A stretch of 64,000 nt of DNA. It comes from Alcanivorax sp. (GTDB lineage Bacteria > Pseudomonadota > Gammaproteobacteria > Pseudomonadales > Alcanivoracaceae). The translations under genes were made by a program, and so were the position numbers. Shown one piece after another: positions 28,885 through 64,000 of the stretch (its first letter is position 1; each line of letters starts with the position of its first letter). Below the pieces are notes generated by a model that searched no databases, was not told where the DNA came from, and saw only the letters and a program-made list of their open reading frames with translations. The stretch spans positions 1,116,001-1,180,000 of the forward strand of contig CP051239.1 in assembly GCA_017794945.1 (NCBI GenBank), given 5' to 3'.

Positions 28885-30249
28885 CTATGCCATCGACTTC
28901 ACAAAGAAGAACTGGGCGGCCAGTCCAATAGTAACCGTGGCTAACAGCGCCGTTAGCGTCACGATATCGATCCAAATACTAGCAGCGTCATGAGGCACCT
29001 CTTCTTGCCTATACATAGGCACGATAATACGCATATATACTGCGAGAGCGAGCACACTGTTGAGAATCGCCACTACAGCCAACCAGGTAAACTGCGCATG
29101 GATAGCAGCGGCAAAGAGCAGGAATTTGCCAACGAAACCAGCGAGTGGCGGAATGCCTACCAGCGAGAGCAGGAAAAGTACCATGGCGACTCCCACCAGT
29201 GGTTGAGCGCGCCCCAGGCCGTTGAAATCGTTTAGCGTACGCCCAACCGCAGCGATAACGGCGAAAGCCCCCAGATTCATAGCGGCGTACGCGGCAGCGA
29301 AAAAAATGATTGATGGCAAAGCAAAAGAACTTTCGCCCAGCGCCACAATACCCAGGAGGAAGTACCCGGACTGGGCAATAGATGAGTAAGCCAGCAGTCG
29401 AACAACATTATCCTGCACCAACGCGGCAAGGTAACCGTAGGTCATACTCAGTACGGCTAGTCCCGCGATAACAGCGGGCCCACCGCTTTCGGAAGGCAGG
29501 TCACGAAACACTTGAGTTAGCGCAAACAACGCGCCCACCTTGGGCACCACAGACAGGAAGGCTGCAACCGATAAGGGCCCACCTTCATAGGCATCCGGCA
29601 CCCAAAAATGAAATGGAACCAGAGATGCTTTATAGCCAAGACCGACAATAACCGCCACCAAACCGAATATGACAGCCAAAGGGATGGCCTCCGTACCCTC
29701 AAGGTCGGCAATCATTGTGGAGCCGGCGGCACCGAACCAGTACGTGAGACCAAAGATCATCACCGCGCCAGCCACCGAACCAAACACAAAGTATTTCATG
29801 GCGGCTTCGGTGGCAGGATCGTCGTCCGGGTAGGCCACCAGAGCAAAGGTCGCCAAACTGGTGAGCAACAGGCCCAGAACCAGAAACATCATATCGCCGG
29901 CGCCGGCTAGAATAAGAGCACCAACGGTAGCTAAACATAATAAACTGTAGACCGTGCCCTCACGCACGGTGCCGCGCACTTCCGCGCTCGCCAGCAGCAA
30001 AGACAGCATCGTCGCCGGCAATAAAATCAGCTTTGCCCAGATGCTGAGCGCGTCTATCCGAAAACTGCCACCGAATACGGTGGTGTCTGTACCCACCAAA
30101 CGTATGGTCAGTCCCGTGGCGACGAACAGGCCCAGCATGGCGAGAGCCAGCGAAGCTCGAGGCCTGCGCAGTATTTCTGCAATCAGCGCGCTGACTGCGG
30201 CTAGCAGCACAGCGATCTCGGGAATTAACAATGCCAGATCACGCCCCAT
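28885..30249 (-). CDS. nuoN: NuoN-like antiporter-type membrane subunit
   Basis: A 454-residue protein with about 14 membrane helices, the last gene of the complex-I-like operon. The proton-channel lysines are kept in YKASLVPFHFWVPDAYEGG (about 207-225), VPKVGAL (about 238) and FVGKFLLF (about 370). In the helix that normally carries a conserved Glu (G-x-E-L-x-S in NuoN) it reads VLGLLLTSLATFAL (about 125), so that acid seems replaced by Leu. The TAATG overlap with nuoM indicates translational coupling. Confidence 0.88.
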   Translation of the reverse strand: MGRDLALLIPEIAVLLAAVSALIAEILRRPRASLALAMLGLFVATGLTIRLVGTDTTVFGGSFRIDALSIWAKLILLPATMLSLLLASAEVRGTVREGTVYSLLCLATVGALILAGAGDMMFLVLGLLLTSLATFALVAYPDDDPATEAAMKYFVFGSVAGAVMIFGLTYWFGAAGSTMIADLEGTEAIPLAVIFGLVAVIVGLGYKASLVPFHFWVPDAYEGGPLSVAAFLSVVPKVGALFALTQVFRDLPSESGGPAVIAGLAVLSMTYGYLAALVQDNVVRLLAYSSIAQSGYFLLGIVALGESSFALPSIIFFAAAYAAMNLGAFAVIAAVGRTLNDFNGLGRAQPLVGVAMVLFLLSLVGIPPLAGFVGKFLLFAAAIHAQFTWLAVVAILNSVLALAVYMRIIVPMYRQEEVPHDAASIWIDIVTLTALLATVTIGLAAQFFFVKSMA

Positions 30250-31718
30250 TATAGCACCAACGCCGAGGTAGTCCGGTGAATGGTGTCCAGCACCCAGGAT
30301 GGTGCCACCCCGGTAGCTACGGTGAGAACCAGTAATGGCGCCAGCGCGAGCACTTCGCGCAAACTCAGGTCGGGCATGCTATGCCAACGTGACTGAGGCT
30401 CGCCAAGAAAGGTTTCGCGAATCGCTTTGAGAAAGGTACCCGCAATGATAGCAAGGCCCAGTATCGACACGACGGCGGCGGGCACACTACCAAGCGTACC
30501 CAGAAATATCTGGAACTCCCCTGGAAAGTGCGCCAGACCAGGCAGGCCCAGCGACGCAAAGGCCGCCAACATAAAGGACCAGCCCAACAGCGGAACCGTT
30601 TTTAGTAGGCCGCCAAATTCGCCCATCTCGCGAGTATGTGCGCGCTCCTGAATCATCCCCACCAGGAAGAACAATGCACCGGTAACCAAACCGTGACTGA
30701 ACATCTGCAGGACGGCGCCATCGAGTGCGGTGGCACGCACTGAAGGGTCCAGAGCCAGTGCAGCCACGGCGACGCCGATGATCACATAGCCCATGTGGTT
30801 AATCGACGTATAGGCCACCAGACGCTTGAGATCGGTCTGCGCCAGAGCGGCGAAGGCGCCATAGAGCGCGCCGATGACACCGAACACCAGGACAACGACG
30901 CCGGCTTCGTGGAACGCCTCGGGAGTCATTTGTAGGGCGAAGCGAACCAGCCCGTAGGTTCCAAATTTCAGCATGATGCCGGCCAGGATGACACTGCCGA
31001 CAGTCGGCGCCTGGACGTGGGCGGCAGGTAACCAAGTGTGCAACGGTACGGCGGGGATCTTGACCGCAAAAGTAACCAGCATGGCGACCAGCGCCCACAT
31101 GGCCGCAGCCCCTTCCAGCGGTGGATTAGCGATCCAGGCGCGCATGTCGAAGCTGGGATCGGGACTGCCGAGGTAAAGCCCCAGGATGGCGAGCAATAAC
31201 GGCAGGCTGCCCAGAAGCGTGTAGATAAAAAACATCAGAGCCGCCCGCTGCCGGTCCTCATGGCCCCAACCGGCAATCATGAAATACATCGACACCAGGG
31301 AGACTTCGAAGAACACATAGAACAGAATTCCGTCGAGGGCGGCAAAGGTGCCGATTGCTGCAGTTTCTAGAAGCAGAACCAAAGCCACGTAGGCGCGCGG
31401 GCGCTCGCGCAGCGACGAAGCATAGATGAATGCCCCCAAAAACAGCATAGCACTCAGCAGCACCAGGGGCAGGCTGATGCCGTCCACACCGACCCGGTAG
31501 GCGGCACCGATAGCCGGAATCCATTCGAGCTCTTCGACTTGGGAAAAGCCCGCGCCGCTCACTCCCTCCAGCCACATGGCCAGCGCCCCGACCAGAGTTA
31601 AACTGGCGGTGCCAATACCAATGCTGTGTACGGTTCGCGCCGTCGGCCCCGGAAGGGCCAGAATCAGGGCGGCACCGGCGAGCGGCAAAAACAGAGTAAG
31701 GGATACAATTGGTAGCAT
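30249..31718 (-). CDS. nuoM: NuoM-like antiporter-type membrane subunit
   Basis: A 489-residue, roughly 14-helix protein of the Mrp-antiporter fold. Key residues of the ion path are all present: Glu in FYVFFEVSLVSMYFM (about 136), Lys in FAVKIPAVPLHTWLP (about 225), Lys in GIMLKFGTYGLVRF (about 255) and Glu in FPGEFQIFLG (about 394). Proton translocation by this subunit is therefore plausible even though the redox module is missing. Gap of 15 bases to nuoL. Confidence 0.9.
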   Translation of the reverse strand: MLPIVSLTLFLPLAGAALILALPGPTARTVHSIGIGTASLTLVGALAMWLEGVSGAGFSQVEELEWIPAIGAAYRVGVDGISLPLVLLSAMLFLGAFIYASSLRERPRAYVALVLLLETAAIGTFAALDGILFYVFFEVSLVSMYFMIAGWGHEDRQRAALMFFIYTLLGSLPLLLAILGLYLGSPDPSFDMRAWIANPPLEGAAAMWALVAMLVTFAVKIPAVPLHTWLPAAHVQAPTVGSVILAGIMLKFGTYGLVRFALQMTPEAFHEAGVVVLVFGVIGALYGAFAALAQTDLKRLVAYTSINHMGYVIIGVAVAALALDPSVRATALDGAVLQMFSHGLVTGALFFLVGMIQERAHTREMGEFGGLLKTVPLLGWSFMLAAFASLGLPGLAHFPGEFQIFLGTLGSVPAAVVSILGLAIIAGTFLKAIRETFLGEPQSRWHSMPDLSLREVLALAPLLVLTVATGVAPSWVLDTIHRTTSALVL

Positions 31719-31733
31719 GAGTATGGCTATCCT

Positions 31734-33644
31734 CTAGAAACTCAACGAGGCTGAAAGCAGTATGATCAGTGTTACGGCGGTAACCACGGCGCTGATAGCC
31801 AGACTGTGGTGAATCCAACCGCTTTGCAGGACGCGGGCGCGGTCTCCCCAGCCTCGTACGCTGGCCACCAGGGCGAAGATCAGGCCGTCGATTCGGCGCT
31901 CATCTCCTACCCGAACCAAGTGCGCCACGGCCAAGCTGGCACGGCCAGTACCCAACACCACCGCATACAAACCTCGTTCCACGCGCCCGCAACCTCGAGC
32001 AATGAAGAAGCCTCCGCGGCCGACACTCAGGACGGTCGCGTATAGGCCACGCTCCAGGCGCTGGCAGCCGTAGGCAATGGCCATGGCTGGTCGGCCGATC
32101 CAGAAGGAGAGCCCTCCGGCGATGACCAGCCCCGATTGTGCCCAGGGGTGGAAAGGGCCAAGCAAGCGAGATGCCGGTACCAGCCAGCCCAGCGCCAGAC
32201 CGGCCGCTGCCGCGAGAAGCCCGAACAGCATGGCGGTAGTGCCATGGTCTCCAGGGCCGGGCAAACCCAACAAGGCTTCAATGGGACCGAAGGTCAGACC
32301 CAGGAAGACGGCTGGGATTACCAGGGCCCATACTCCCAGCCCCATCCAGCGGGCGCCGGCCACCGAACGGTTTTCGTTTTCACCCTCCTCGCGCTCGTGC
32401 CATAGCAGCCGCAGCGCGCGAGCCAAGTAGGCACCGGTCAGCAGTGTGCCCGCCAGTGCCAGGGGAGCGAGCCAGGCGACACTTGGCGCGGACAGTGCGG
32501 CGGCGATCACCGCGTCCTTTGAGAAGAAGCCGCTCAGCGGTGGAGCACCCACTAGGGCCAGCGCTGCCAATGCGAAGCCGAAGAAAGTCCAGGGCCGGAC
32601 GCGCCCTACACCACGCAAGCGCTCCAGAGCCGTGCCGCCGCGCGCATGCTGAAATTCACCGGCTGCTAAAAACAGGCCACTCTTGATGGCGGCATGGGCA
32701 AGCAGATGCAACAACGCCGCCAGCGGCACCCCGGCGCCGACCGCAATCAGCATCAGACCATACTGACTGGCGGTTGAGGCCGCCAGCAGGCGCTTGAGGT
32801 CACGTTCGGCAAGCGCAATCAGACCTGCCGCCACGGTAGTAATACCGCCCACCAGCCCAATAGCGAGCAAAACTTCCGGCGTCAGCAGCGGCGCTACACG
32901 GATCAGTAAAATGGCACCTGCTGCCACCAGTGTCGCCGAGTGCAACAACGCCGACACCGGTGTGGGCCCCGCCATGGCACGCATAAGCCAGTCCTGGAGG
33001 GGGATCTGGGCAGACTTGCCCATGATAGCGAGCAGCAACAAAAGCCCGGCCGCCACGGCGGTGTCTCCGTCGACATTCAGGGTGGCGGCGATCTCGCTGG
33101 TGCCCGCCGCCCCCATGAGGGTGAATATCGCGATGTACAGACCAAGATCGGCACTGCGGGTGTAGAGAAAGGCACGGCTCGCGGCGTTCGCCGCTTCGGG
33201 CCGCTGAAACCAGAAACCGATCAGCAGGTAACTGCACAAGCCAATCAGCTCCCAGGCGGCGAGCACCAGAACCCAGTCGCCGGCCAGAACCAGGGCCTGC
33301 ATGGCGGCAACAAACAAGGACATAACGGCAAAAAAGCGGGGTAGGCCGGACTCCCGCTTCATATAGCCTACCGAATAAATCAACACGCAAGTCGCCACGG
33401 CGGCAACCACTACACTGAGCAACGCGGTTAACGGCTCGGCGGTCAACCGCAAGGGTAGATCCGGCAAGCCTGGCAGCAGCAGGGTTGCGGAGTCACCACT
33501 GGCGACCGCCCCCAAAAGCTTAAGGCTTGCCGCCAAACTAAGTGCGACCCCGACCAGCGCCAAAATAGCCGCTCCCCGGCGCAGCAGCAGAATGGCAGCG
33601 GCCGCAAGCAAAGGGAACACTATGGGCAAGACCAGGTCACTCAT
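31734..33644 (-). CDS. nuoL: NuoL-like antiporter-type membrane subunit
   Basis: A 636-residue protein with the NuoL pattern: WELIGLCSYLLIGFW (about 130-144), GKSAQIPLQDWLMRAMAGPTPVSALLHSAT (about 208-237; channel Lys and His), AHAAIKSGLFLAAGE (about 316) and GFFSKDAVI (about 367). The C-terminus differs from ordinary NuoL: between residues about 518 and 590 a motif (C-x-R-x-E-R-G-L-Y-A-x-V-L-x-x-G-R) occurs twice, followed by the usual RRIDGLIFALV. DabB-type and Mrp proteins were considered but there is no DabA or MrpE/F/G partner. Confidence 0.9.
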   Translation of the reverse strand: MSDLVLPIVFPLLAAAAILLLRRGAAILALVGVALSLAASLKLLGAVASGDSATLLLPGLPDLPLRLTAEPLTALLSVVVAAVATCVLIYSVGYMKRESGLPRFFAVMSLFVAAMQALVLAGDWVLVLAAWELIGLCSYLLIGFWFQRPEAANAASRAFLYTRSADLGLYIAIFTLMGAAGTSEIAATLNVDGDTAVAAGLLLLLAIMGKSAQIPLQDWLMRAMAGPTPVSALLHSATLVAAGAILLIRVAPLLTPEVLLAIGLVGGITTVAAGLIALAERDLKRLLAASTASQYGLMLIAVGAGVPLAALLHLLAHAAIKSGLFLAAGEFQHARGGTALERLRGVGRVRPWTFFGFALAALALVGAPPLSGFFSKDAVIAAALSAPSVAWLAPLALAGTLLTGAYLARALRLLWHEREEGENENRSVAGARWMGLGVWALVIPAVFLGLTFGPIEALLGLPGPGDHGTTAMLFGLLAAAAGLALGWLVPASRLLGPFHPWAQSGLVIAGGLSFWIGRPAMAIAYGCQRLERGLYATVLSVGRGGFFIARGCGRVERGLYAVVLGTGRASLAVAHLVRVGDERRIDGLIFALVASVRGWGDRARVLQSGWIHHSLAISAVVTAVTLIILLSASLSF

Positions 33645-33952
33645 CCCTGCAGGTCTCCGGCCTCTTCCATCTCGACCGAGCCCTTGGCCCGGAAGCGTGC
33701 AATTGCGACGCCGAAACCGACGGCCATCTCCACTGCCATAACCGTCATTACCACCAGCACAAACATCTGTCCGGCGTAGACCTCCGGATGCAGAAAGCGC
33801 CAGAAGGCCACAAGGTTCACCAGCGCGCCCGCCAGAATCAGCTCCACTCCCATCATTATCATGACCAGGTTAGTCTGCGAGAGCGCGCCATAGATACCGA
33901 CACCAAAGAGAATGGCGCCGGTCAGAAGTGCCAGGATCAGTACCGGAGTCAT
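33641..33952 (-). CDS. nuoK: NuoK-like membrane subunit
   Basis: A 103-residue, three-helix protein. The two conserved membrane glutamates of NuoK are present, in MIMMGVELILAGALVNL (about residue 37) and VMAVEMAVGFGVAIARF (about 75). Length is normal (about 100). It overlaps nuoL and nuoJ by 4 bases each (ATGA). The second helix begins SQTNLVMIMMG, slightly richer in Met than usual. Confidence 0.92.
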   Translation of the reverse strand: MTPVLILALLTGAILFGVGIYGALSQTNLVMIMMGVELILAGALVNLVAFWRFLHPEVYAGQMFVLVVMTVMAVEMAVGFGVAIARFRAKGSVEMEEAGDLQG

Positions 33953-34515
33953 TTTGAAGCCTCCTGTTCTTTATCACCGTTTTCCTTGTCGAGCTTTCCT
34001 GTGTCGACGCCGGGCTGGCGCACCGGAATCGCTACTGCCGTAGCCGCGATCATTGCGGTCAGGATGGTGATAGCGGCGGTCTCGAAAATCAGCATAGAGC
34101 GATCCAACATTTCAAAACCGAGCTCCCGCGTTTGCATTGCAGCATCCGGCGCCTCGGCGAATATCGGCCCCCAATCAGAGAACAGCGCTACCGAGATGGC
34201 GGTGGTGGCGGCAATGGCTCCAGCACCAATCGAAAAGCGCTTCTGGTGGCTCATATCCATCCCGCCAAGCCCACCGGGGTCCATCATGAACATCACCATG
34301 AAGATGGCCATGATGCTCATTTCGGTGGCCATCATCATAATCTGCAGCACGCCCAGAAATTCGGCCTGCATGGCCAGAAACATGCAGCCCACGGCGGCCT
34401 GTGAAAACAGCAGCGCCAGCGCAGAACGCACCATAGACGCGGTACGGAACACCGCCACACCGAAACCGATCGCAGCCAGCCCGAATACGCCGACAAAAAA
34501 AGCCTGTGCAACCAT
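33949..34515 (-). CDS. nuoJ: NuoJ-like membrane subunit with Met-rich segment
   Basis: A 188-residue protein with five membrane helices. The third helix, normally Y-x-G-A-I-x-V-L-F-x-F in NuoJ, reads LQIMMMATEMSIMAIFMVMF and is followed by GGLGGMDMSHQ, so about a dozen Met fall within 45 residues; such Met/His clusters bind Cu(I) or Ag(I) in copper proteins. The ATG at 34515 shares its A with the nuoH stop (TAATG). A longer upstream frame to 35088 is antisense-free chance and was not used. Confidence 0.85.
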   Translation of the reverse strand: MVAQAFFVGVFGLAAIGFGVAVFRTASMVRSALALLFSQAAVGCMFLAMQAEFLGVLQIMMMATEMSIMAIFMVMFMMDPGGLGGMDMSHQKRFSIGAGAIAATTAISVALFSDWGPIFAEAPDAAMQTRELGFEMLDRSMLIFETAAITILTAMIAATAVAIPVRQPGVDTGKLDKENGDKEQEASK

Positions 34516-35411
34516 TAGGGCACCACCAGGATGAGCAATCCGACTATCAAAATATTGAGCAGCGCCAGGGGGATTCCAAACTTCCAGCACCAACCCAGCA
34601 GATCCGCCTCGCGAATACGCGGCAAATAGTAGCCAACCAGCAACATCGATACGGCTACCGCCAGAGTCTTGATCAGGCTCCAGGCCCAGGGCGGCAAAAG
34701 CGGCCCCTGCCAGCCACCGAGAAAGAACACCGTAGTCGCGGCAGACAGGGTGATTAGCATCACCAATCGTGCTAGCCGCAACACTGTCAGGCGCACGCCG
34801 GTGTATTCGGCGTCGACCCCGCCGGCTAACTCGCCGGGTGCGGTAGGCAGGTCGAAGGGTGAGCGGAACGCCAACGCCATAGCGGCGATGAAAAACAACA
34901 CAAACCCCAGCGGTTGGTAAACGATGTTCCATAAACCGGCCTGAGACTCGACGATGACGCTGTTCAACAGGGACTCGGCGCGCATGGCGGTCGCCGTAAT
35001 GGGCATGACGATAAGCATGGAGTAGGCGATAAGTTGGCCGAGAAAACGCCAGCCACCTATCATCGCGTAGGCGCCGTTCGGGCCCCAACCAGCCATGATC
35101 AGCGATACCAACACATAGGCAAGCACCGCGTTGAGAAACAAGGCGCCGGTGGCCAGATCAGCAATGACCAGATCCGGCGTCAGCGGAAGTACGGCAGCAC
35201 CGAGCACCGCCACCACCAGCAACAACACTGGTGCGGTCTCGAAAAACAGCCGGTCGGGCTTGCGCGCCAAGATGGACTCGCGGCCCAGGTGCGACAGGCC
35301 CGCAAGCAGCGGGGCGACCGGTCGCAGGCGGCCGGTCGTGAGCCAGGCCTCAATCACAGCCAGTAACCAAGCGCCAACCAACAGTGTGAGCAACACTATG
35401 GCGACAGTCAT
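34515..35411 (-). CDS. nuoH: NuoH-like membrane subunit
   Basis: A 298-residue protein with about eight helices, the quinone-site anchor of complex I. The diagnostic loop [23 protein letters not shown] (about residues 190-212) is recognisable, but the acidic cluster of true NuoH (P-E-A-E-x-E-L) is partly changed to T-A-P-G-E-L. The family's IPLAxxQxRxGPxxVG N-terminal motif is not seen; here the corresponding stretch reads [17 protein letters not shown], so the quinone chamber is probably altered. It overlaps the fusion gene by 4 bases. Confidence 0.88.
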
Positions 35412-37051
35412 GAGCTCACCTCCCAGGGCGAGAGATCCAGTGACCCGACCGCCACCAAGGCATCACCCAATTCCTGACCTTCGACCAGGTCGGCGGCCAG
35501 GCCGATATGTTGGCGGCAGGCGCCGTCCAGCTCGACCGATACCACCTGCCCTCGCTCCAGGGTCAGCTGCAATGTGGAGCGGCCGCGCGGCGTTTCCACG
35601 GTCGCCTCCCCCGTTCCGGAAGGGCTGTCGATGGCTCGCAGCTTGGGGAGCTCAGGGTCTCCGGCGGCCTCTACGAGATCGAGACTGGTCACGATCTCAA
35701 CATGCCGCTGCCGGAAACGCGCCCAGGCGTCCCCAGCGCCCTCAATGTACAGCTCGAAACCCAGCTCGCAATACATTGCGTCCGCCTGGCGGGCATCTTC
35801 GGTCCGGCCGGAGGCGCGTGCCACCGGGCCTCTTAGATCCTGGGAGCCGTGGGGCAAAGCGCCGATGCCTTTCAAGCGCGCTTTGAGAAGGGGCGTATGC
35901 TCGAGCCGTGCGATGAGCGCCTGCAGCGCCGGCCGCAGGACAACAAGCTGCTCCCCGTCGGCGCGCTGGGTTTCCAATTGCAAAGCCGCCGCACGACGTG
36001 TCAACCAGACAAAGCTGAGCTGGCGGCCCAACTGGGCCAGCCAGCCCAGATGGCTGGCGATGCGCTCTCGCTCAAGAGCGGCCGCCCGGCCCCGCTCGAC
36101 GGCCGGATCTGGCTCCAGACCAGCCGCCTGCTCGATAGCGCGGCAGGCCAAGAGGCGGTAACTTACCGGTGCCAACGGCGTGGCCGCCGCCAGGCGCTCG
36201 ATGAAGGTTTCGACCGCCACCTCTTCAGAGGGGGTGCCCATAGCTACCAGAGATGTCGCTTGGCCCTCGGTCACCCCGTCACCGTCGAGCGTCAAGGTCA
36301 GTCTCAATCCTCCCGGCAAACCGGGAAAGCAGGGGCCGAAGGGCACCTCAAGCCAGTCCATTGCCAAACCGTCAGCGCTGCGAGGCAGGTCTTTGGTAAC
36401 CTCGACCATGGACATGAATCCCGAGCTGCCGTGGTCGTGGTCTCCGTGATCATGATCGCCGTGACCGTGGCCGGAATGGTCGTGCTCCCCAGCATCCGCG
36501 TCGCCGCCGGCTTCGCGCGCCACCAAATCCATGCCGCATTTGGGACAGCTACCTGGTTCGTCCTCCACCACTTCCGGGTGCATGGGGCAGACGTACTCAG
36601 TTTTGGTTTGCAGGATTGATGAGTCAAAATCGTCAGGCGAGGCGGCGAAGGCGTCTTCAGCCAGCAACCGCTGCAGCCGAGTGGCCGCCTCCATCAGTTC
36701 GGTTTGTGAGAGATCCGCGGAAACGTCAGCTTTAGGCAAAGACGAAGGTTCTGACCCACCGAGCACTAGAATAGCTCGCGGCCTAGGCATCTGGGCATAG
36801 AGCACTGCGGTGGCCTCGTCCAACTTCTGAGATAGCTCACCGACAACCAGGAGCACAGTGGCATCGCGCGGCGTGGCGGCGATGCGCATGTCTGCGGCCG
36901 CCAGGTTCAGCCCATGCGCCAGGGCCACTTCCGGCCCAGGGACTACCAGGCAGCTCAAATTGCGCGCCAGAGCCTGCCCAACCCACCTTCGCAGGATAGA
37001 TGGACGCCCTTTGCGTGCGCCTGCAAGTGTCGTTGCGACCTCGGTCATCAT
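35408..37051 (-). CDS. fusion: cluster-less NuoB-like domain, heavy-metal-binding domain, His-rich linker, degenerate NuoD-like domain
   Basis: A 547-residue protein in the place of nuoB-nuoC-nuoD. Residues about 15-130 follow NuoB ([44 protein letters not shown]), but of the four cluster-N2 cysteines only C34 has a counterpart. Residues 152-178 are a heavy-metal-binding domain as in CopA/CusB proteins (YVCPMHPE, then CPKCGMDL). Residues 188-208 alternate His with Asp and Gly. From about 230 to the end it follows Nuo[57 protein letters not shown] and the final [15 protein letters not shown], without the NiFe-hydrogenase-type cysteines. No NuoC domain. The start overlaps nuoA by 4 bases. Confidence 0.88.
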
Positions 37052-37410
37052 TGCCGCCTCAGAGCGCCCTGACTCCATCCGTAAAGCAACCCAAGAAAGA
37101 GAATCGCAAGAAACACGCCCATGTCAAGTAAAGCAACCAGCCCTACTTCCTTGAACACAACCGCCCAAGGGTACATGTAGGCCATCTCCATATCGAACGC
37201 CAAAAACAGCAATGCATAACCGTAATAGCGCGCATGATAACGTCCCCAGACCGGAGCCCGCGACAGCACTCCGGCGCTTGCCGGCACATCCTTGCCAGGT
37301 TCCTGCCGTGTTGGACCCACACTACGGGCTAAACCATACAGGCTTAACACCGCGCCCAGGATACCCAGTGCCAATCCCAGCAGCAGTAAGTATTGTTGTG
37401 TAGCGCTCAT
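37048..37410 (-). CDS. nuoA: NuoA-like membrane subunit
   Basis: A 120-residue, three-helix protein and first gene of the operon. The conserved acidic helix start F-D-x-E and the Y/P-W motif are present as [16 protein letters not shown] (about residues 62-77), with Met at positions that are usually Val or Leu. [16 protein letters not shown] is the normal family stretch. ATG 37410 gives [13 protein letters not shown], the expected N-terminus; the frame is open upstream but the added residues are hydrophilic and unrelated. Confidence 0.9.
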
Positions 37411-37556: not shown

Positions 37557-38113
37557 CTAGCCGGGGAATCTGACTCGCGAAACATCATTCAGAATTTTTG
37601 TGATCGGTTTCGTCCAGCGAGGCATCCGCGAGCCGCCGCCATTGACGCCAACCAGGCAGGAACATGGAACCCGTCGCTGGTAGGCCCTGTAGGCGTCACC
37701 GAACCGCTCCATCACTTGCCGCTCCTCTCGCTGCGCCAGCCGGTAGTAGGCAAATACAATAAGCGGAAACAACCCAACCGAGAACAATGTAGGCCAATGC
37801 CGATGAAAGCGAGTGCATAGCCAAGCAACATGGAGATCAGCATGCCGGTTTCACCCAACCCTATCAGGGTGGCCCACAGGTTGGCGCTAACGTAATCGCT
37901 ATCCAGCCCGAAGAACCGCACCAGTAGATAAATCGTCAGTGGAAAGCCGTACATCTCGGCATAAAGTGCGATGATGAAAGCTTGCACCAACCCGGCACCC
38001 GCCCATTCACGCCAGCTTTTCGGCGCAAAATACCGATAAAACATCCAGGAGACCAATGCAATAACAATCAGTGCAATGCCCCATAGCCCCGCATGGCCCA
38101 TAAGTTCATTCAT
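37557..38113 (-). pseudogene. isoprenylcysteine carboxyl methyltransferase-like membrane protein, internally deleted and frameshifted
   Basis: The first part (from ATG 38113: MNELMGHAGLWGIALIVIAL, then YAEMYGFPLTIYLLVRFFG and LLGYALAFIGIGLH) and the last part in another frame (LFPLIVFAYYRLAQREERQVMERFGDAYRAYQRRVP) are both typical of the short ICMT-like proteins found in copper clusters. Between them about 45-50 residues that include the R-H-P-Q-Y motif of the family are missing, and the frame changes near 37790. The remaining frames overlap only partly, so a functional enzyme is unlikely. Confidence 0.8.
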
Positions 38114-38186
38114 CGTTTGATACCCTCACAGGTGCGGTGGTTGGGCTCTCCCGACATTCCATGGGAAACGCCGGTTTTCGGAGCGT

Positions 38187-38429
38187 TTAGTTTTCGTCTC
38201 CTTTATCGTGCCCGCTGTGCATGCCCAAAACGCACATCATCAGACACCCCAGGCCAACCAGGGCCACGACGAGCAACCCGCTCGCCGCCAGCCAGTTCCA
38301 ACCGAGCGCGAGACCTATCAATGCCACCAGGCAGACCGCGACGGCAATGGGACGGCGCCTGAACCACTGACGCAAATTGCGCACTCGGGCGCCTCGCCCC
38401 GGACCGTTCTCTTTCTCGCTCTTCGCCAT
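38187..38429 (-). CDS. DUF2933-type small membrane protein
   Basis: An 80-residue protein with a basic N-terminus (RVRNLRQWFRRRPIAVAV), two membrane helices (about 29-46 and 48-66) and a tail CVLGMHSGHDKGDEN. The short tail with Cys, Met and two His is typical of DUF2933 proteins, which occur in copper-resistance clusters and are otherwise uncharacterised. ATG 38429 was chosen (MAKSEKEN); the frame continues 20 codons upstream without a ribosome site. It lies 16 bases after the DUF411 gene. Confidence 0.78.
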   Translation of the reverse strand: MAKSEKENGPGRGARVRNLRQWFRRRPIAVAVCLVALIGLALGWNWLAASGLLVVALVGLGCLMMCVLGMHSGHDKGDEN

Positions 38430-38445
38430 GACGGTGACCTCTGTT

Positions 38446-38916
38446 TCAATCAGTGGCGTAGATCGACATTTCGTCATCCGTAATCGCATAAATCACAAAA
38501 GGCTCCCGCTTTTGCCCAGACATTCCCGGCGACCCCTGGGGCATGCCGGGAAGCGATACACCGCGGATCTCTGGCCGTTCGTCCAGGAGCTTGTTAATAA
38601 CCCCCACCGGAACATGACCCTCGATCACGTACCCATCGAGCAGCATGGTATGACAACTTTGTAAGCGGGACGGTACGCCATGCTCGGCTTTGAACTGCCT
38701 CAAGTTGGGGGTTTCAGTCACCTTGATCTCATAGTCGTACTGGCGCAAGTACGCAGCATATTGGTCGCAGCACCGGCAACTCGGATTTTTGTACAGCGTC
38801 GCATCAACGGTTTCGGCGGCCTGCACCGACGGCAAGCTGGCCAAGTAAACGGTCACCATCAACGCCCCTCTGAGGATCGATGTGTATCGCCTTTTCCAAC
38901 GCAGAAAGGTTGTCAT
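38446..38916 (-). CDS. DUF411 periplasmic metal-binding protein
   Basis: A 156-residue protein with a signal peptide (about 1-33, cleavage near VQAAE). The mature part has a thioredoxin-like opening ATLYKNPSCRCCDQYAAYL with the CxCC motif (about 46-51) and the second motif SCHTMLLDGYVIEGHVP (about 87-103), both hallmarks of DUF411. The family is associated with copper and silver resistance operons and is proposed to bind Cu(I). It overlaps the upstream small gene by 4 bases. Confidence 0.9.
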   Translation of the reverse strand: MTTFLRWKRRYTSILRGALMVTVYLASLPSVQAAETVDATLYKNPSCRCCDQYAAYLRQYDYEIKVTETPNLRQFKAEHGVPSRLQSCHTMLLDGYVIEGHVPVGVINKLLDERPEIRGVSLPGMPQGSPGMSGQKREPFVIYAITDDEMSIYATD

Positions 38917-39149
38917 GAACGGTCTCCTTTTTTGGATTTACTGAAGAACAGGTACTTAATCATGGACAGGATCGCCAGAACCAAGGCAATGAACAGCAGG
39001 ATCAGCAAGACGATACACGCCAACATAAAACCAGCGCCCATCATGCCGGAGTCTTGCATCATCCCAGCCGAAGCTTGTTCGGCAGCCAAGGCGGTGTTTG
39101 CCAGAAATGTAAATGCTAAAAGTAAAAATGAACGCATCAAATTTTTCAT
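38913..39149 (-). CDS. small exported, Met-rich single-span protein
   Basis: A 78-residue protein: signal peptide (about 1-22, ending ANTALAAEQ), a Met-rich stretch GMMQDSGMMGAGFM (about 27-40), one membrane helix (about 41-66) and a basic tail. Family not recognised. Met pairs spaced like this bind Cu(I)/Ag(I) in other periplasmic proteins, which fits the location between cusA and DUF411. Start at ATG 39149 with GGAGG 6 bases upstream. Confidence 0.7.
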   Translation of the reverse strand: MKNLMRSFLLLAFTFLANTALAAEQASAGMMQDSGMMGAGFMLACIVLLILLFIALVLAILSMIKYLFFSKSKKGDRS

Positions 39150-39176
39150 GGGTTGCCTCCAGTTAAAGTAAGTAGA

Positions 39177-39225
39177 GTACCGAAAGTACCGCCGCCCGGT
39201 ACCGAAAGTACGGATCGGTACCGGA
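39177..39225. promoter_or_regulatory. 22-base-spaced GTAC repeats downstream of cusA
   Basis: GTACCGAAAGTAC occurs at 39177-39189 and again at 39199-39211, start to start 22 bases (two helical turns), each copy itself a dyad of GTAC. A further CGGTACCG palindrome follows near 39217-39224. It lies in the 89 bases between cusA and the next gene, as expected for an operator. Confidence 0.5.
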
Positions 39226-39238
39226 CGGCGATGACGCA

Positions 39239-42200
39239 TTAAGTTTTCAGCGGTGGTGTCGGTGCCCCCTTGGGCAGACCGCGTCCCCGCCATAGCATGA
39301 AGATTGCCGGGTATACCACCAGCACCATCAACAGGGCAGAAATCACCCCGCCGACCATGGGCGCGGCGATGCGCTGCATCACGTCCGCGCCGGTACCGCT
39401 GGCGAACAGGATCGGCACCAACCCGATAAAGGTCGACAGCCCGGTCATCAGCATGGGCCGGATGCGTTGGCCGGCGCCGCTCTGGACGACTTCGGTCATA
39501 TCTCCACGGGTATTGAGTCGGCGCTCGGCCTCCCTGTCCCGCCAGGCGATATCCAGATACACCATCATCAGCAACCCGAGCTCCACGGCGAGCCCCGCAA
39601 CGGCAATCATGCCCACCCAGACGGCGACACTGAGGTTAAAGTCCAGCCACCACATCAGCCAGACGGCCCCGCTCAGCGAAATGGGCACACTCAGCATCAC
39701 CAGCAGGGTCTCTACGAGGGAGCCTCGGTGCATAAAGAGCATGAAGAAAATCAGGAACAGCGTGATCGGAACCAGCAATTGGAGTTTGGCTTTGGCCCGC
39801 TCAAAATACTGGAACTGCCCCGCCCAAGCCAGCCGATAACCGTCCGGCACATCGACCTGGTCGCCAACCACCTGCTTGGCCTGTTCGACATAATCGGCAA
39901 TACCGACTTCGCTTTTGACGTCCACAAAGACGAATCCCACAAGTTGCCCGTCCTCACTGCGAATGGAAGGCGGCCCGGTTTGAAACTCAATGTCCGCCAC
40001 CTGGGCGATGGGAATCTGCTCCCCGGAAGGAGTGGGCACCAGTACTCGCTCCAGCGCTTCCACGTTGTCGCGGTAATCCCGGGCGTAGCGCACCAGGATG
40101 TTGTAGCGCTCGCGCCCCTCCACGGTTTGCGACACCACAGTCCCCCCCATGGCCGCCATGATCACCCGTTCCACATCGCCAACGTTGAGGCCAAAGCGAG
40201 CCGCAGCACTTCGGTTGACGGTGAAATCCAGAAAGTACCCACCGGTGCTGCGCTCGGCAAAGGCGCTGCGGGTGGCATCGGCGGTGCGCTCATCCTCCTG
40301 CAACGCTTTTTCAATGGCGATGCCCGTTTTTTCGATAGTGGCCAGGTCCGGACCAAACACCTTGATGCCCAACGCTGAACGAATACCGGTCGCGAGCATT
40401 TCGGTGCGAGTCTGTATGGGCATCCAAAAAATATTGGGCATTCCCGGAAACTTGAGTTTCGAGTCCATCTCCTGAATCAGACCGTCCCACGTCATGCCCT
40501 CGCGCCACTGGTCCTCCGGCTTCAAGGTAATGACCGTTTCCACCATGGATAACGGCGCGGGATCGGTCGCGCTGGTGGAGCGACCCACCTTGCCGAAAAC
40601 ATGCTCCACTTCGGGAATGTCGGCAATGATCCGGTCCATAGTCTGCAGGGTCTGGGTGGCCTCGGAAATGGACATTCCCGGCAGCGCGGTGGGCATAAAG
40701 AGAACCGAGCCCTCGTTCAGAGGTGGCATAAACTCGTTGCCCAATTGCCGGAAGGGAATGATCGTGATCAGCAATAGCAACACCGCTCCCACGATGACTC
40801 CCCACCGAAAACGCGCGGCGAAAGCCACCACAGGCCGGTACGCAGCCACCAGCCACTGGTTCAACTTACTGCGATCAGCACGGATCTTGCCGCGAATCAG
40901 CCATACCGCGAGGGCCGGCACCAGAGTGATGGACAGGAACGCCGCAAATGCCATGGAATAGGTCTTGGTAAAAGCCAGAGGCTTGAACATGCGCCCTTCT
41001 GTGCCTTCCAGGACGAACACCGGCATAAAGGAGATGGTGATGATTGCCAGCGAGAAAAAGATGCTGGGGCCTACCTGCTGCATGGCCTCAATAATCACGT
41101 CCCGTCGGGACTTGGCCTTTTCCTCGGGGTCGGCGTCGTCACTCTCCCACCGGGCCAACCGTTTGTGGATATTGTCGATAATGACAATCGCCGCATCCAG
41201 CATGGCGCCAATGGCCACCGCAATGCCGCCCAAAGACATGATGTTGACGGTCAGCCCCTGAAAATACATGGGGATGAAGGACATCAGCACCGCTACCGGG
41301 AGAGTAATCGCGGCCACCAGCGTAGAGCGCACGTGTAACAGAAAAACGCCGATAATCAGGGAGACAATCAGGATCTCCTTAATCAGTGTCGAGGTCAGCG
41401 TGTCAACGGCTTCGTTGATCAAAATCGAGCGATCATAGACCGGCACAATTTCGACACCTTCAGGGAGCCCGGGCTTGATCTCTTCCAGGCGCTGCTTGAC
41501 CTTGTCAATAACTTCCAGGGCGTTCTCGCCATAACGCATTACCGCAATACCGCCCACGGCTACGCCCTCGCCGTCCAGCTCCGCCTGACCGCGCTGCATA
41601 GCCGGTCCCAATGCCACGTGACCGACGTCTTTTACCGTGATCGGTACACCCTCAGCCGTGGTTTTTAACACCACTGTTTCCAGATCCGCTACGGACTTCA
41701 CATAACCCCGCCCGCGAATAAACTGCTCGTGGCCTGCCACCTCAAGAATGCGTCCACCTACATCCTGGTTGGAGTCCCCAACCGCCTCAGTGACCCGTTT
41801 GAGGGGGATGTCGTAAGAGGCGAGTTTGTTCGGGTCGAGACTGATCTGGTATTCACGCTGGAACCCACCGATGGAGGCCACCTCGGCGACCCCTTCAACC
41901 GCTTCCAGGGCATAGCGTAAATTGAAATCCTGCAGTGAGCGCAGATCCGCCAGGCTGTGGTTGCCAGACGTATCTCTCAGTGCATATTGGTAGACCCAAC
42001 CGACACCCGTAGCATCCGGCCCCAAAGTCGGAGTGACCCCCTCCGGCAACTCGGCGGCGGCACCGTTGAGGTACTCCAGTACCCGCGAGCGGGCCCAGTA
42101 CATGTCCACGCCATCGTCGAAAATCACATAGACAAACGACAGGCCGAACATGCTCTGGCCGCGCACATAGTTTACTCCCGGCGCAGACAGCAAGGAGGTG

Positions 42201-42472
42201 GTCAGAGGATAGGTGATCTGGTCCTCCACCAGGTCCGGGCTGCGCCCGGGCCAGTCGGTGAAGACAATCACCTGCACATCTGACAGGTCAGGGATAGCAT
42301 CCAACGGTGCCCGCTGTAACGCCTGCCAGCCGCCAAAGGTCAGGGCAAGCACGGCCACCAAGGTAATCAGGGGTTTGCGGGCACAATAGCCAATAATTCG
42401 CTGCAACCAGCCAATCCCCTCCCCTTCGGCCGGGGGATGAGCGGGCGGATGCTTATGTACGTCGTTTACCAT
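39239..42472 (-). CDS. cusA: CusA-type heavy-metal RND efflux pump
   Basis: A 1077-residue inner-membrane RND pump (12 helices) exporting Cu(I)/Ag(I) with proton antiport. Family motifs: RAPLDAIPDLSDVQVIV (about 52), GMSISEATQTL, and a TM4 region IMSLGGIAVAIGAMLDAAIVI with the conserved acid. Met residues expected for the CusA metal relay are present around MPPLNEGSVLFMPTALPGM and FWMPIQTRTEMLATGIR. The His-rich N-terminus (HKHPPAHPP) is an extra. It overlaps cusB by 7 bases. CusA rather than CzcA is supported by the copper-type neighbours and IFWMPIQTRTEML. Confidence 0.93.
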   Translation of the reverse strand: MVNDVHKHPPAHPPAEGEGIGWLQRIIGYCARKPLITLVAVLALTFGGWQALQRAPLDAIPDLSDVQVIVFTDWPGRSPDLVEDQITYPLTTSLLSAPGVNYVRGQSMFGLSFVYVIFDDGVDMYWARSRVLEYLNGAAAELPEGVTPTLGPDATGVGWVYQYALRDTSGNHSLADLRSLQDFNLRYALEAVEGVAEVASIGGFQREYQISLDPNKLASYDIPLKRVTEAVGDSNQDVGGRILEVAGHEQFIRGRGYVKSVADLETVVLKTTAEGVPITVKDVGHVALGPAMQRGQAELDGEGVAVGGIAVMRYGENALEVIDKVKQRLEEIKPGLPEGVEIVPVYDRSILINEAVDTLTSTLIKEILIVSLIIGVFLLHVRSTLVAAITLPVAVLMSFIPMYFQGLTVNIMSLGGIAVAIGAMLDAAIVIIDNIHKRLARWESDDADPEEKAKSRRDVIIEAMQQVGPSIFFSLAIITISFMPVFVLEGTEGRMFKPLAFTKTYSMAFAAFLSITLVPALAVWLIRGKIRADRSKLNQWLVAAYRPVVAFAARFRWGVIVGAVLLLLITIIPFRQLGNEFMPPLNEGSVLFMPTALPGMSISEATQTLQTMDRIIADIPEVEHVFGKVGRSTSATDPAPLSMVETVITLKPEDQWREGMTWDGLIQEMDSKLKFPGMPNIFWMPIQTRTEMLATGIRSALGIKVFGPDLATIEKTGIAIEKALQEDERTADATRSAFAERSTGGYFLDFTVNRSAAARFGLNVGDVERVIMAAMGGTVVSQTVEGRERYNILVRYARDYRDNVEALERVLVPTPSGEQIPIAQVADIEFQTGPPSIRSEDGQLVGFVFVDVKSEVGIADYVEQAKQVVGDQVDVPDGYRLAWAGQFQYFERAKAKLQLLVPITLFLIFFMLFMHRGSLVETLLVMLSVPISLSGAVWLMWWLDFNLSVAVWVGMIAVAGLAVELGLLMMVYLDIAWRDREAERRLNTRGDMTEVVQSGAGQRIRPMLMTGLSTFIGLVPILFASGTGADVMQRIAAPMVGGVISALLMVLVVYPAIFMLWRGRGLPKGAPTPPLKT

Positions 42473-44361
42473 TGCTCCATGCCTCCTTTGAGTCGGCTCT
42501 CGGAGGCGATCAGGAAGTTACCGGAGGTGACCACGCGGTCACCCGCCTCGACCCCCTCGATGATTTCGATGTAACCGCCGGCCCGTTGACCGGTTTGCAC
42601 TTTGCGCGGTGCCAGCCGACCCTCTCCCAGGTCCTCGAACACCACACGCAGTTCACCCGCGATAATTACCGCCTCTTCCGGCACGGCCACTCGCTGCCCA
42701 AGATCGGCCTTAAGCTTCACTTCGGCGTACATATTGGGCTTGAGACGACCTTCAGGGTTGGCGACGCTAAGGCGCACTCGCCCCGTACGGCTGACGTCGT
42801 CCAAATAGGGGTAAATGTAGTCCACTTGGCCCTCAAACTGTTCACCGGGCAGATAAGGAAGCGTCACGGTAACGGGCATGCCCTCCGTCACCAGGGGCAG
42901 TTCGCCCTCGTAGATATCGGCCTCCACCCAGACCTGGGAGAGATCGGCAATACGCAAAAGCGTCATCCCGGCCTTGTGGGCGGTCCCTTCCACCACATTC
43001 TTGGCCACCACTGTGCCACTGATGGGCGCGTGCATGGTGACGTAATCGAGGGGCTCTCCTCGTTTTTCCAGGGTGGTGATTTCCGCGTCGGTCATGTCCC
43101 ACAGTGCAAGCCGTTTTCGAGCGGCGGTCACCAAAGTTTGTGAGGCGCCACTGCGGCGCTTCAACTGCAGATACTCCTGCTGAGCGGCGAGCAGCGCCGG
43201 ACCATAAACGGTAAACAGGGGCTCTCCCTTTTCCACGTAACCCCCCACGTAATCGGCGTAGAGCTCGCCGACCCAGGCATCAAACTTGAGGCTGACGTCC
43301 GCCAGTTGGGTATCGTCGTAGGCAATCCGCCCTTCCGCGCGGATGGTGCGGGTCATAGCCAAGGTTTGTGCCTCGGCGGTTTCCACACCGATCAACTGGC
43401 GACGACGATTGTCCAGGGTCACCGTACCCGGTGGTGCCTCCTCGGCCATGCCGCCACCGTCGGTTCGGCTGGCACCGGAGGCCAGTTGGAGGCCTTCGCG
43501 CCCGACGGCCAAATCAAAGCTGATTTGCCGAGCTGGCATACCCGGCGCCTCAATCTTTAGAGTCAGCGGCCAACTACCGTCCATGGCGGGTTCAAAGGTG
43601 CCGCGGTAGAGACCGGGCTCGATCGCCTGCATATCGGCCGGAGCCTGCATGGCGGGCATGGCGCCCATGGCGGGCATCTCCGCCACCGCTTTGATGTCGG
43701 CGTTGTCCAGTGGGGCACCGTCGGCATTGCGCAGAGCCACGCTCAGGATGTTCTCTCCCACACGTGGCGTGGTAGGGTCAATCGACACATCCAGGCGATA
43801 GGGGCCACTGCGGTAGGGCAACTCGCCGTCACTGTTCTTGCCCATGGCGCCCGCCTGTTGTCGCTTCAAAGCAGTCACGCCTCCGGCTGGCTGCAAGCCC
43901 TTTCGTCCGACGGCCAGATCAAAATTGGCCCGCGAGGATCCCACGCCTTCCTTGCTGATTTGCAAGGTCAGCGGCCAGCTACCGTCCATGGAGGGCTCAA
44001 AGGTGCCCTGGTAGAGACCGGGCTCAATCTCCTGCATATCGGCCGGAGCCTGCATGGCGGGCATGGCGCCCATGGCGGGCATTTCCGCCACCGCCTTGAT
44101 GGCGGCACCGCTGACCGGCTCTCCAGAGTCATCCAGCAATACCAGGGTCAGATCGTTTTCACCGACCCGGGGTGTTTTCGGGTCAATCTCGACCCCCAAT
44201 TGAAAGGGACCGCTTTGGTAGGAAGCGCTAAGGGAGGGCTCCTCATCGGGAACGGCAGAGGTTGCCTTCTCACCGGAGAGCCTCTGAAGACCCAATACGC
44301 CGGCGGCACCCACCAGCAGTCCGATAACGAGAAGTGAGATAAATGTGGTGCGTGAAGTCAT
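42466..44361 (-). CDS. cusB: CusB-type periplasmic adaptor with duplicated Met-rich N-terminal domain
   Basis: A 631-residue membrane-fusion protein, well above the usual 400. After an N-terminal anchor (about 8-26) come two copies, 135 residues apart, of a FixH/YtkA-like domain (about 49-155 and 184-290), each with AEMPAMGAMPAMQAPADMQ and GSWPLTL. From about 310 the normal CusB body follows (GRIAYDDTQLADVSLKFDAW, VYGPALLAAQQEYL, LFTV). The Met clusters are suited to capturing Cu(I)/Ag(I) in the periplasm and may replace a separate CusF. The HMBD found in some CusB proteins is absent here but present in the fusion protein encoded at 35408. Confidence 0.9.
   Translation of the reverse strand: MTSRTTFISLLVIGLLVGAAGVLGLQRLSGEKATSAVPDEEPSLSASYQSGPFQLGVEIDPKTPRVGENDLTLVLLDDSGEPVSGAAIKAVAEMPAMGAMPAMQAPADMQEIEPGLYQGTFEPSMDGSWPLTLQISKEGVGSSRANFDLAVGRKGLQPAGGVTALKRQQAGAMGKNSDGELPYRSGPYRLDVSIDPTTPRVGENILSVALRNADGAPLDNADIKAVAEMPAMGAMPAMQAPADMQAIEPGLYRGTFEPAMDGSWPLTLKIEAPGMPARQISFDLAVGREGLQLASGASRTDGGGMAEEAPPGTVTLDNRRRQLIGVETAEAQTLAMTRTIRAEGRIAYDDTQLADVSLKFDAWVGELYADYVGGYVEKGEPLFTVYGPALLAAQQEYLQLKRRSGASQTLVTAARKRLALWDMTDAEITTLEKRGEPLDYVTMHAPISGTVVAKNVVEGTAHKAGMTLLRIADLSQVWVEADIYEGELPLVTEGMPVTVTLPYLPGEQFEGQVDYIYPYLDDVSRTGRVRLSVANPEGRLKPNMYAEVKLKADLGQRVAVPEEAVIIAGELRVVFEDLGEGRLAPRKVQTGQRAGGYIEIIEGVEAGDRVVTSGNFLIASESRLKGGMEQW
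43562..44101 (-). repeat. 135-bp segment of cusB duplicated at 43562-43696 and 43967-44101
   Basis: The two segments are 405 bases apart and by eye differ at about nine of 135 positions. The repeat encodes the Met-rich core of each N-terminal domain, while flanking linkers differ more, so the duplication is recent or kept uniform by conversion. Confidence 0.85.
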
Positions 44362-44366
44362 AGTCG

Positions 44367-45710: not shown

Positions 45711-45795
45711 GGGGAGTACCCTCAATCGGCATAACGAAAAATCCTCGACCCGCCAACAGGACAGGCCATAGCCTCACGACAAATCGGGGGATTAA

Positions 45796-61457: not shown

Positions 61458-61486
61458 TGGCCGGCTCCTTCGATCCGTTTCCGCAC

Positions 61487-61517
61487 ATTCCAATACCTGT
61501 AGCCACTACAGGGTCAA
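61487..61517 (-). promoter_or_regulatory. CadR/PbrR-like MerR-family promoter of czcD
   Basis: On the minus strand TTGACC (61517-61512) as -35, then a 19-base spacer and TGGAAT (61492-61487) as -10. The spacer holds a perfect dyad: CCTGTAG (61496-61502), 3 bases, CTACAGG (61506-61512). An over-long spacer around such a dyad is the design of MerR-family promoters, and the sequence is close to CadR/PbrR operators. The regulator gene is not in the window. Confidence 0.8.
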
Positions 61518-61615
61518 GCCCGATCAGAAAGAGGACTTCGGCCTGGTCCTCGACCGGTACCGGCGACGCACAGGCACGGCCAGTAGTTCATCGTCAATCC
61601 CATATCATACTGACG

Positions 61616-61637
61616 GGGCGCCCAAACGGTGGCGCCC
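61616..61637 (-). terminator. hairpin after czcA
   Basis: GGGCGCC (61616-61622) and GGCGCCC (61631-61637) pair around an 8-base loop, 21 bases after the czcA stop. No T-run follows on the minus strand, so it is only a possible terminator or mRNA end protector. Confidence 0.4.
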
Positions 61638-61658
61638 TGTTTCGGGTTAAGGTCCAGG

Positions 61659-64000
<2,342 letters not shown>

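Follow-up and report, generated by a model that had tools for sequence, protein, structure and literature searches.

What does the membrane arm of respiratory complex I do in a cell when the subunits that would feed it with electrons are missing and copper genes lie beside it? This question has been raised by an operon within a 64,000-nucleotide stretch of Alcanivorax sp. (contig CP051239.1, positions 1,116,001 to 1,180,000; hereafter the window), for which an inspection of the letters alone, here called the sequence-only reading, had proposed a complex I-like machine without an electron-input module and with a metal-binding hub. Eight open reading frames (ORFs), all on the minus strand, have been found in the order nuoA, a fusion of NuoB- and NuoD-like parts around a heavy metal-binding domain (HMBD), nuoH, nuoJ, nuoK, nuoL, nuoM and nuoN (Table 1). 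Their coordinates bear out the gene order, the overlaps of 1-4 bases and the 15-base gap between nuoL and nuoM that had been claimed, with 4 bases shared at A/fusion, fusion/H, J/K and K/L and 1 base at H/J and M/N; these values presuppose that the fusion starts at Met10 (37051, which gives the 4-base overlap with nuoA), the start that is also annotated in several plasmid relatives. Pfam matches comprise Oxidored_q4, HMBD plus Complex1_49kDa, NADHdh, Oxidored_q3, Oxidored_q2 and three times Proton_antipo_M, and NCBIfam agrees; the B part of the fusion is weak, with Oxidored_q6 reaching 14.9 bits against a cut-off of 27. Our tentative reading is that complex I has here become a translocator of Cu(I)/Ag(I) coupled to protons; metal moving along methionines would replace the part played by quinone chemistry.

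The ligands of classical redox chemistry have been lost from the fusion. In 13 of 13 fusions only 0-2 cysteines precede the first HMBD, at differing positions, which is too few for cluster N2, as this needs four; the proposal that the fusion is unable to bind N2 has thus held. The best solved relative of the D part is the large subunit of the Pyrococcus furiosus membrane-bound hydrogenase (MBH), whose first CxxC motif aligns to non-cysteine columns, and since the invariant residues of the D part include no cysteine and a single histidine, the second NiFe CxxC pair is absent too. The histidine of the NuoD HPxxH loop and the tyrosine fall on invariant proline columns of the D part, columns that we take, from the positions of the motifs, to be those of E. 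coli H228 and Y277. For both residues of NuoD a role in quinone binding has been described (accessible text of PMC13324432). With these losses at N2, at the NiFe site and at the histidine and tyrosine for quinone, classical redox chemistry by the fusion appears unlikely as judged from its residues. An AlphaFold model of the fusion (mean predicted local distance difference test, pLDDT, of 44 from 6 close sequences) has been too poor for use.

A missing input module could in principle be supplied from elsewhere in the host, whose assembly consists of one contig of 3.14 Mb with a completeness rated at 86%. NuoC, E, F, G and I are not in the operon, and the genome-wide search, which covered NuoC and the NuoF-type C-terminal domain and left E, G and I unsearched, has found neither of the two. 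The host has a single NuoH and a single NuoA, and an additional NuoK-like match ~150 kb from the operon is taken for an Mrp gene; no second complex I that could contribute the missing subunits has been found, and the claimed absence of electron input stands within this scope. Among 46 genomes of the family, in which the type of NuoH has been judged by score and matched range, ten contain NuoH, seven of the operon type (E about 1e-57, profile positions 45-297) and three of the ordinary type (E 5e-118 or lower), and none contains two. In the seven Alcanivoracaceae carriers the operon-type NuoH is accordingly the only one, and the six carriers other than the host are 99-100% complete genomes. The notion of a respiratory complex I that takes its NADH or ferredoxin module from another locus of the host draws on the Nuo annotation and on the true homology of the D part and NuoH; in view of the missing NuoC and NuoF-type domain, the single operon-type NuoH of the seven carriers and the missing N2 site, it is largely refuted and highly improbable. 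The NuoC and NuoF-type results and the single NuoH have also led us to reject redox activity by way of an NADH module of the host.

The sequence-only reading had named a recurring cluster of an HMBD fusion with nuo membrane genes near cus or cop genes as support for its proposal, and the same operon has indeed been found in 15 further named genomes and plasmids examined, so that it is no chance arrangement. Type I operons, whose fusions carry 1-5 HMBD motifs, occur in Alcanivorax relatives and on plasmids from both Alphaproteobacteria and Rubrobacter, and every one of the 17 type I loci has all eight subunits in the same order. The motif number is one in the window and in L002, two in ten other fusions, three in a Paracoccus (L082), five in Thioclava and zero in a Xanthobacter remnant; the type I linkers are His-rich, and the window copy is the shortest among the whole fusions. 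A fusion 100% identical to that of the window is present in Alloalcanivorax venustensis ISO4, which places the host in this species or very close to it. Matches to the fusion (tblastn) have been obtained in 18 of 72,556 plasmid records, twelve of which (H1-H12) are annotated as a heavy metal-binding domain-containing protein at the match, seven being covered to at least 80%; of the other six, two are hydrogenase large subunits, two are HMBD-only adaptors, one is an unannotated place and one is the Xanthobacter remnant. The ten of the twelve that have been examined (all but H2 and H10) come from Paracoccus (2), Sulfitobacter (3), Roseovarius, Nitratireductor, Thioclava and Rubrobacter (2, Actinomycetota), and each of the ten keeps the order A, fusion, H, J, K, L, M, N. 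The irregularities are a fusion in two pieces in Sulfitobacter dubius, a nuoH with a short annotation behind a small ORF in Rubrobacter marinus and, in three further plasmid loci, a fusion annotated with a late start within a longer open frame. Among the matches listed, drawn from 80 genome-contig loci, L002-L007 are the only full-length ones, the others covering the HMBD and neighbouring residues; phage records searched with the fusion gave no match, and in the host's order the type I D part has been found in 5 of 286 genomes, in one of them in two frames. Upstream of the type I operon in L129 (7608-8123) and L130 (6600-7823), an extra gene for an antiporter-like proton-conducting subunit lies on the opposite strand. 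On the Azospirillum lipoferum plasmid L087 (1730-10924), a gene of the aldehyde ferredoxin oxidoreductase family adjoins a set resembling hydrogenase or complex I, a set that is not of the family described here.

A second branch, type II, has a fusion without HMBD and with the linker GxGxxGxGGxGMMGGxPYGRPMAM. Searching 398 Pseudomonadota genomes with the D part has yielded 25 matches, 5 strong and 20 weak, and among the weak ones G308, G314 and G395, all of the host's order, encode A, a B/D-like protein and H in sequence; the type II fusion has been found in 4 of 293 genomes of this order. Eight plasmid records gave a match, and of the five examined those of Halomonas, Roseivivax and Acuticoccus hold the whole set in the same gene order, the Vreelandella copy is in pieces and the Martelella copy is cut by a transposase gene. 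G283, Roseivivax and Acuticoccus have lost much of the D part but retain the Met linker together with the first strands of D. The C-terminal tail of type II NuoJ is His-rich (6.4% His in 6 rows vs 1.6% in canonical rows), mostly owing to Roseivivax and Acuticoccus. The NuoJ C-terminus faces the cytoplasm. Both branches thus carry metal-binding sequence in different subunits, type I as HMBD and His linker, type II as Met linker and NuoJ tail. Directly after the type II operon of Halomonas KO116 (L123, 18108-20380) lie egtB and egtD of ergothioneine biosynthesis. The separate NuoH clade that had been predicted has been recovered in a 44-row tree, where types I and II form one clade (100/99) on a stem of 1.43 and each type forms its own (100/99 and 100/100); because the two hydrogenase root rows are very long, the point at which the family left complex I is unsure. 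Broken copies, i.e., plasmid remnants and frame-broken fusions, have been noted in L086, L124, L127, L130, G367 and G678:C11, and those of the Xanthobacter, Martelella and Vreelandella plasmids and of G678, together with the split fusions of S. dubius and G367, might suggest a decaying relic or a passenger without function. Such a reading is very doubtful, as the membrane subunits of the host and Rubrobacter are still about 55-81% identical and the channel and Met residues nearly invariant; the cluster is neither unique, since it recurs elsewhere, nor decayed in the host.

The location beside copper genes, noted for the window, recurs as well. A panel of 13 copper-gene proteins, taken from the window and six operon plasmids, has been searched in each locus, and among the 23 loci with at least 19 kb shown, copper genes have been found nearby in 20 (12 of 14 type I and 8 of 9 type II; for G235 three stretches were used, with the copper gene about 11 kb away, and L122 was dropped as the window copy). 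Leaving out the seven panel donors, 13 of 16 loci have copper genes, and the short contig pieces of 10.7-13.3 kb (L004, L005, L007, L120, L121) have none (0/5). Of ten canonical nuo operons with 24 kb flanks each (10 of 18 Pseudomonadota canonical operons), one had a match, a distant pump of the resistance-nodulation-division (RND) family; the difference (Fisher p 5e-5; 6e-4 without the donors) is a rough one, as the flanks of the operon loci differ in length. An earlier control, with 0 of 19 canonical nuo loci of 10-20 kb, is weak because the nuo operon fills most of each locus.

A related arrangement has been published for Marinobacter atlanticus, where seven colocalised genes, six of them nuoADHJKL-like, lie within a copper-resistance operon and, together with the copper genes, are more expressed on an electrode at 160 mV (Eddie et al., 2021; accessible text of PMC8233155). 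The likeness consists in a partial nuo set inside co-expressed copper-resistance genes, the difference in that seven genes are listed, without nuoM or nuoN, and that copper redox has been suggested as the energy source (accessible text of PMC8233155). Compared by description, this cassette probably belongs to the same family as the window operon. The statement of the sequence-only reading that no such system had been described is therefore too broad, and it holds for the HMBD fusion, the Met ladder and the distribution, of which no description has been found in the literature searched, a literature that lies mostly outside subscription papers. A survey of unusual complex I by Chadwick et al. 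from 2018 may mention the cluster. The main text of a survey of plasmid Nuo genes, as far as accessible, does not use the word 'metal' (PMC12361115), and the terms NADH, nuo, proton and complex I do not occur in PMC11371751. Eddie et al. would have copper oxidation or reduction at the fusion power proton pumping, a proposal based on co-expression (accessible text of PMC8233155), and multicopper oxidases and cytochromes do adjoin some loci. We consider this improbable: no electron acceptor site has been found, the N2, NiFe and quinone ligands are those already described as lost, the D part offers no invariant cysteine and one histidine, and in part of type II it is shortened further. Of the ion-driven or metal-redox role suggested initially, the ion-driven part fits, and the metal-redox part finds little support, as no known redox ligand set survives in the fusion and the residues gained are Met ladders.

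The state of the proton arm has been compared across rows of three kinds, 17 of type I, 5-6 of type II and 17-19 canonical ones (from 18 Pseudomonadota operons and E. coli K-12), excluding L122 (window copy), L005 and L006 (near copies) and L124 and L127 (broken). Both types keep 9 of 10 tested NuoL residues, and the exception, D400, is replaced by Glu in type II and in one type I row; NuoM keeps K234, K265 and E407, with E144 replaced by Asp in type II; NuoK keeps E36 and E72 (one Asp), NuoN K217, K247 and K395, and NuoA E81 together with D79, which is Glu in type II. Lost in both types are NuoH E157 and E241 (present in 19/19 canonical rows), NuoH E218, NuoK R25 and NuoN E133 (present in 18/18 canonical rows). 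Type I alone has lost NuoM K173, which is Met in most of its rows, and NuoN E104, and type II alone NuoA K46. The arm formed by A, H, J, K, L, M and N is accordingly of complex I type with its channel residues, except for NuoN E133, NuoH E157/E241 and NuoM K173 of type I. The pumping arm has been preserved as proposed, in that the antiporter Lys and Glu of L and M and the E36/E72 pair of K are kept; the further statement that the channel residues of L, M and K are intact applies largely, with exceptions such as NuoM K173. The losses of NuoN E133 and NuoH E157 go beyond what the sequence-only reading had noted.

Gained residues point to methionine. At 90 positions types I and II share a non-canonical residue (carried by 90% or more of the rows of each type and by 10% or fewer of the canonical ones), and at 20 of these it is Met (p 3e-9 with an assumed background of 4.5%, 4-5% being usual), concentrated in NuoA, J and K (18/48) as compared to H, L, M and N (2/42; Fisher p 1.3e-4); as the types share an ancestor, these p values express concentration at a place and not independent gains. 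The stronger point is that Met has been retained although NuoH of the two types has drifted apart to 31-35% identity. Helix 3 of NuoJ reads M-M-x3-M-x2-M-x3-M-x3-M-M, with MxMxH in the following loop, and at 100 degrees per residue Met62, 66, 69, 73 and 77 share one face. In NuoA the motif M-E-M-x2-M surrounds the kept E81, Met74, 76 and 79 corresponding to E. coli V80, A82 and L85 near the D79/E81 pair, and in NuoK three Mets surround the kept E72. A recent model of the E-channel places 12 residues in the quantum region at the D79(A)/E36(K) gate (accessible text of PMC13324432, 2026). Among these, V58(J), Y59(J) and A73(K) have become Met and A62(J) Glu in both types, Y59 being Tyr in 19/19 canonical rows and Met in 17/17 type I and 6/6 type II rows; the Met enrichment at the gate is 3/12 vs 17/689 columns overall (p 0.0024, again a measure of concentration at a place). 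In the E. coli structure, E157(H), D79(A) and the bulge of NuoJ helix 3 surround one cavity (accessible text of PMC8357420). Conserved membrane Mets beside charged residues, a trait expected of a Cu(I)/Ag(I) transporter with a Met ladder, are present in this family. Since Met has a single codon, the ladder can be read as a DNA pattern, which occurs in 36 of 209 loci, all with nuoJ of the operon type (36 of 36 such loci), and in 0 of 19 canonical operons. It is found in 12 of 398 Pseudomonadota genomes, nine with the system (5 type I, 4 type II) and three without, and the backward pattern gave none among the matches listed. At least 120 stretches of viral contigs contain the NuoJ Met pattern, and 80 such viral loci compared to the operon membrane subunits gave no match, so that the pattern is not specific in ATG-rich viral material.

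Taken together, the parts speak for metal at the gate and for a proton arm that works, without giving a direction. Our preferred reading, plausible and held with reserve, is a redox-free derivative of complex I handling Cu(I) and/or Ag(I), with proton-driven export as the most likely role. The cytoplasmic B/D fusion would no longer be an enzyme and would act as a metal-collecting lid, built from HMBDs and the His-rich linker in type I and from the GMMGGxPYGRPMAM linker and the His-rich NuoJ tail in type II. The lid would pass Cu(I) to a Met path leading from the MxMxH loop of NuoJ along its helix 3 into a pocket of NuoA and NuoK Mets at the E-channel gate of complex I. Protons entering through the preserved channels of L, M, N and K would then push Cu(I) out into the periplasm, to be taken over there by CusCBA, multicopper oxidases or CopB. 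What the sequences show is the operon, its conservation, the lost ligands, the Met gains at the gate and the copper genes nearby; we infer Met binding of Cu(I), the crossing of the membrane by metal, the coupling to protons and the direction. The nearest rival is a metal-gated proton machine with the same anatomy, in which Cu(I), by binding in the Met pocket or moving inward there, would trigger or power the L/M/N channels and so adjust the proton gradient or pH under copper stress, net export not being its job. The cytoplasmic metal-binding domains could be its sensors and the L/M/N channels have been retained; a sensor has no obvious need for seven helix 3 Mets or 1-5 HMBDs, and we regard this alternative as rather unlikely.

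Besides this rival, several points weigh against the export of copper. Its direction and proton coupling are inferred, P-type ATPases and CusCBA already export copper, so that it is not evident why a third exporter would be needed, and with NuoN E133, NuoH E157 and other charged residues lost the proton arm may work differently. Met is also a hydrophobic residue, and its gains, inherited from the common ancestor of both types, are not independent events. Three of the 23 loci (L090, L129, G314) are without a panel copper gene nearby, and AlphaFold models (mean pLDDT 41 for NuoJ) have been too poor to test a continuous Met path.

Among known systems, respiratory complex I (NDH-1, nuoA-N) shares homologous A, H, J, K, L, M and N, the gene order and the channel residues of L, M and K, and the window NuoH is closest to complex I chains among solved structures. 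The operon differs from it by lacking C, E, F, G and I, by a fused B/D without redox or quinone ligands, and by the Met ladder at the E-channel gate and the copper neighbours. Group 4 [NiFe] hydrogenases and energy-converting hydrogenase-related (Ehr) complexes, such as MBH and formate hydrogenlyase, resemble it in the D part, of which the MBH large subunit is the best solved relative; the operon is without both NiFe CxxC motifs, and its membrane arm (A, J, K, L, M, N) is that of complex I. Membership in NiFe hydrogenase-related complexes has been rejected, the NiFe CxxC pairs being absent from the D part. In Mrp cation/proton antiporters, antiporter-like subunits work without redox and, as far as is known, without NuoA, NuoH or a B/D part. 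Their matches to the operon proteins are weaker, the operon content is not an MrpA-G set, and we know of no such Met ladder in Mrp. For CusA, a heavy-metal RND pump without homology and of other fold and complex, a methionine ladder has been proposed as the Cu(I)/Ag(I) route through a proton-driven pump (accessible text of PMC7558416), which is the likeness to the present case.

Within the window the operon shares an island with metal genes (Table 1), cusCBA (39239-45725) being placed upstream of nuoA at a distance of 1.8-8.3 kb and sharing its strand. The CusB-type adaptor shows two YtkA-like stretches toward its N-terminus. In the interval between nuoA and cusA (37712-39293), three small ORFs flank the DUF411 gene; they have no Pfam match at E 0.001 and look membrane-protein-like by eye. 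A further metal-transport region at 60525-63992 (minus strand) contains, by eye, a cation diffusion facilitator-like ORF and a long heavy-metal RND pump-like ORF.

Table 1. Coordinates of the operon and its metal-related neighbours in the window.
Feature	Position	Strand	Remarks
nuoA	37048-37410	-	120-aa form; longest ORF from 37494; Met74, Met76 and Met79 derived
B-HMBD-His-rich-D fusion	35408-37051	-	547 aa from Met10; longest ORF from 37078, 556 aa
Heavy metal-binding domain within fusion	36517-36595	-	CPMHP...CPKCGM; residues 162-187 of 556-aa form
nuoH	34515-35411	-	E157/E241 (E. coli) lost; D213/E220/E228 kept
nuoJ	33949-34515	-	188 aa; Met-rich helix 3 and MxMxH loop
nuoJ helix 3 methionine ladder	34282-34335	-	Met61, 62, 66, 69, 73, 77, 78
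nuoK	33641-33952	-	Derived Met31, 69, 72, 76; E. coli E36/E72 kept
nuoL	31734-33644	-	Proton_antipo_M
nuoM	30249-31718	-	Proton_antipo_M
nuoN	28885-30249	-	Leu in place of E. coli E133; Proton_antipo_M
DUF411 protein	38446-38916	-	Neighbour, same island
cusA-type metal RND pump	39239-42472	-	Neighbour; CusA/CzcA family match in L084 and L128
cusB-type adaptor	42466-44361	-	Neighbour
cusC-type outer-membrane factor	44367-45725	-	Neighbour

How a local event at the quinone end of complex I drives distant proton channels has been a long-standing question. If the preferred reading is true, a natural redox-free version, with other chemistry at this very gate, would separate coupling from electron transfer and make the coupling directly testable. 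As public annotation names the proteins NADH-quinone oxidoreductase, surveys of complex I may misjudge their hosts, e.g., the seven Alcanivoracaceae genomes without any other NuoH. The operon may be an unrecognised proton-driven copper transporter, and the family would then represent an unrecognised, often plasmid-borne type of copper/silver resistance.

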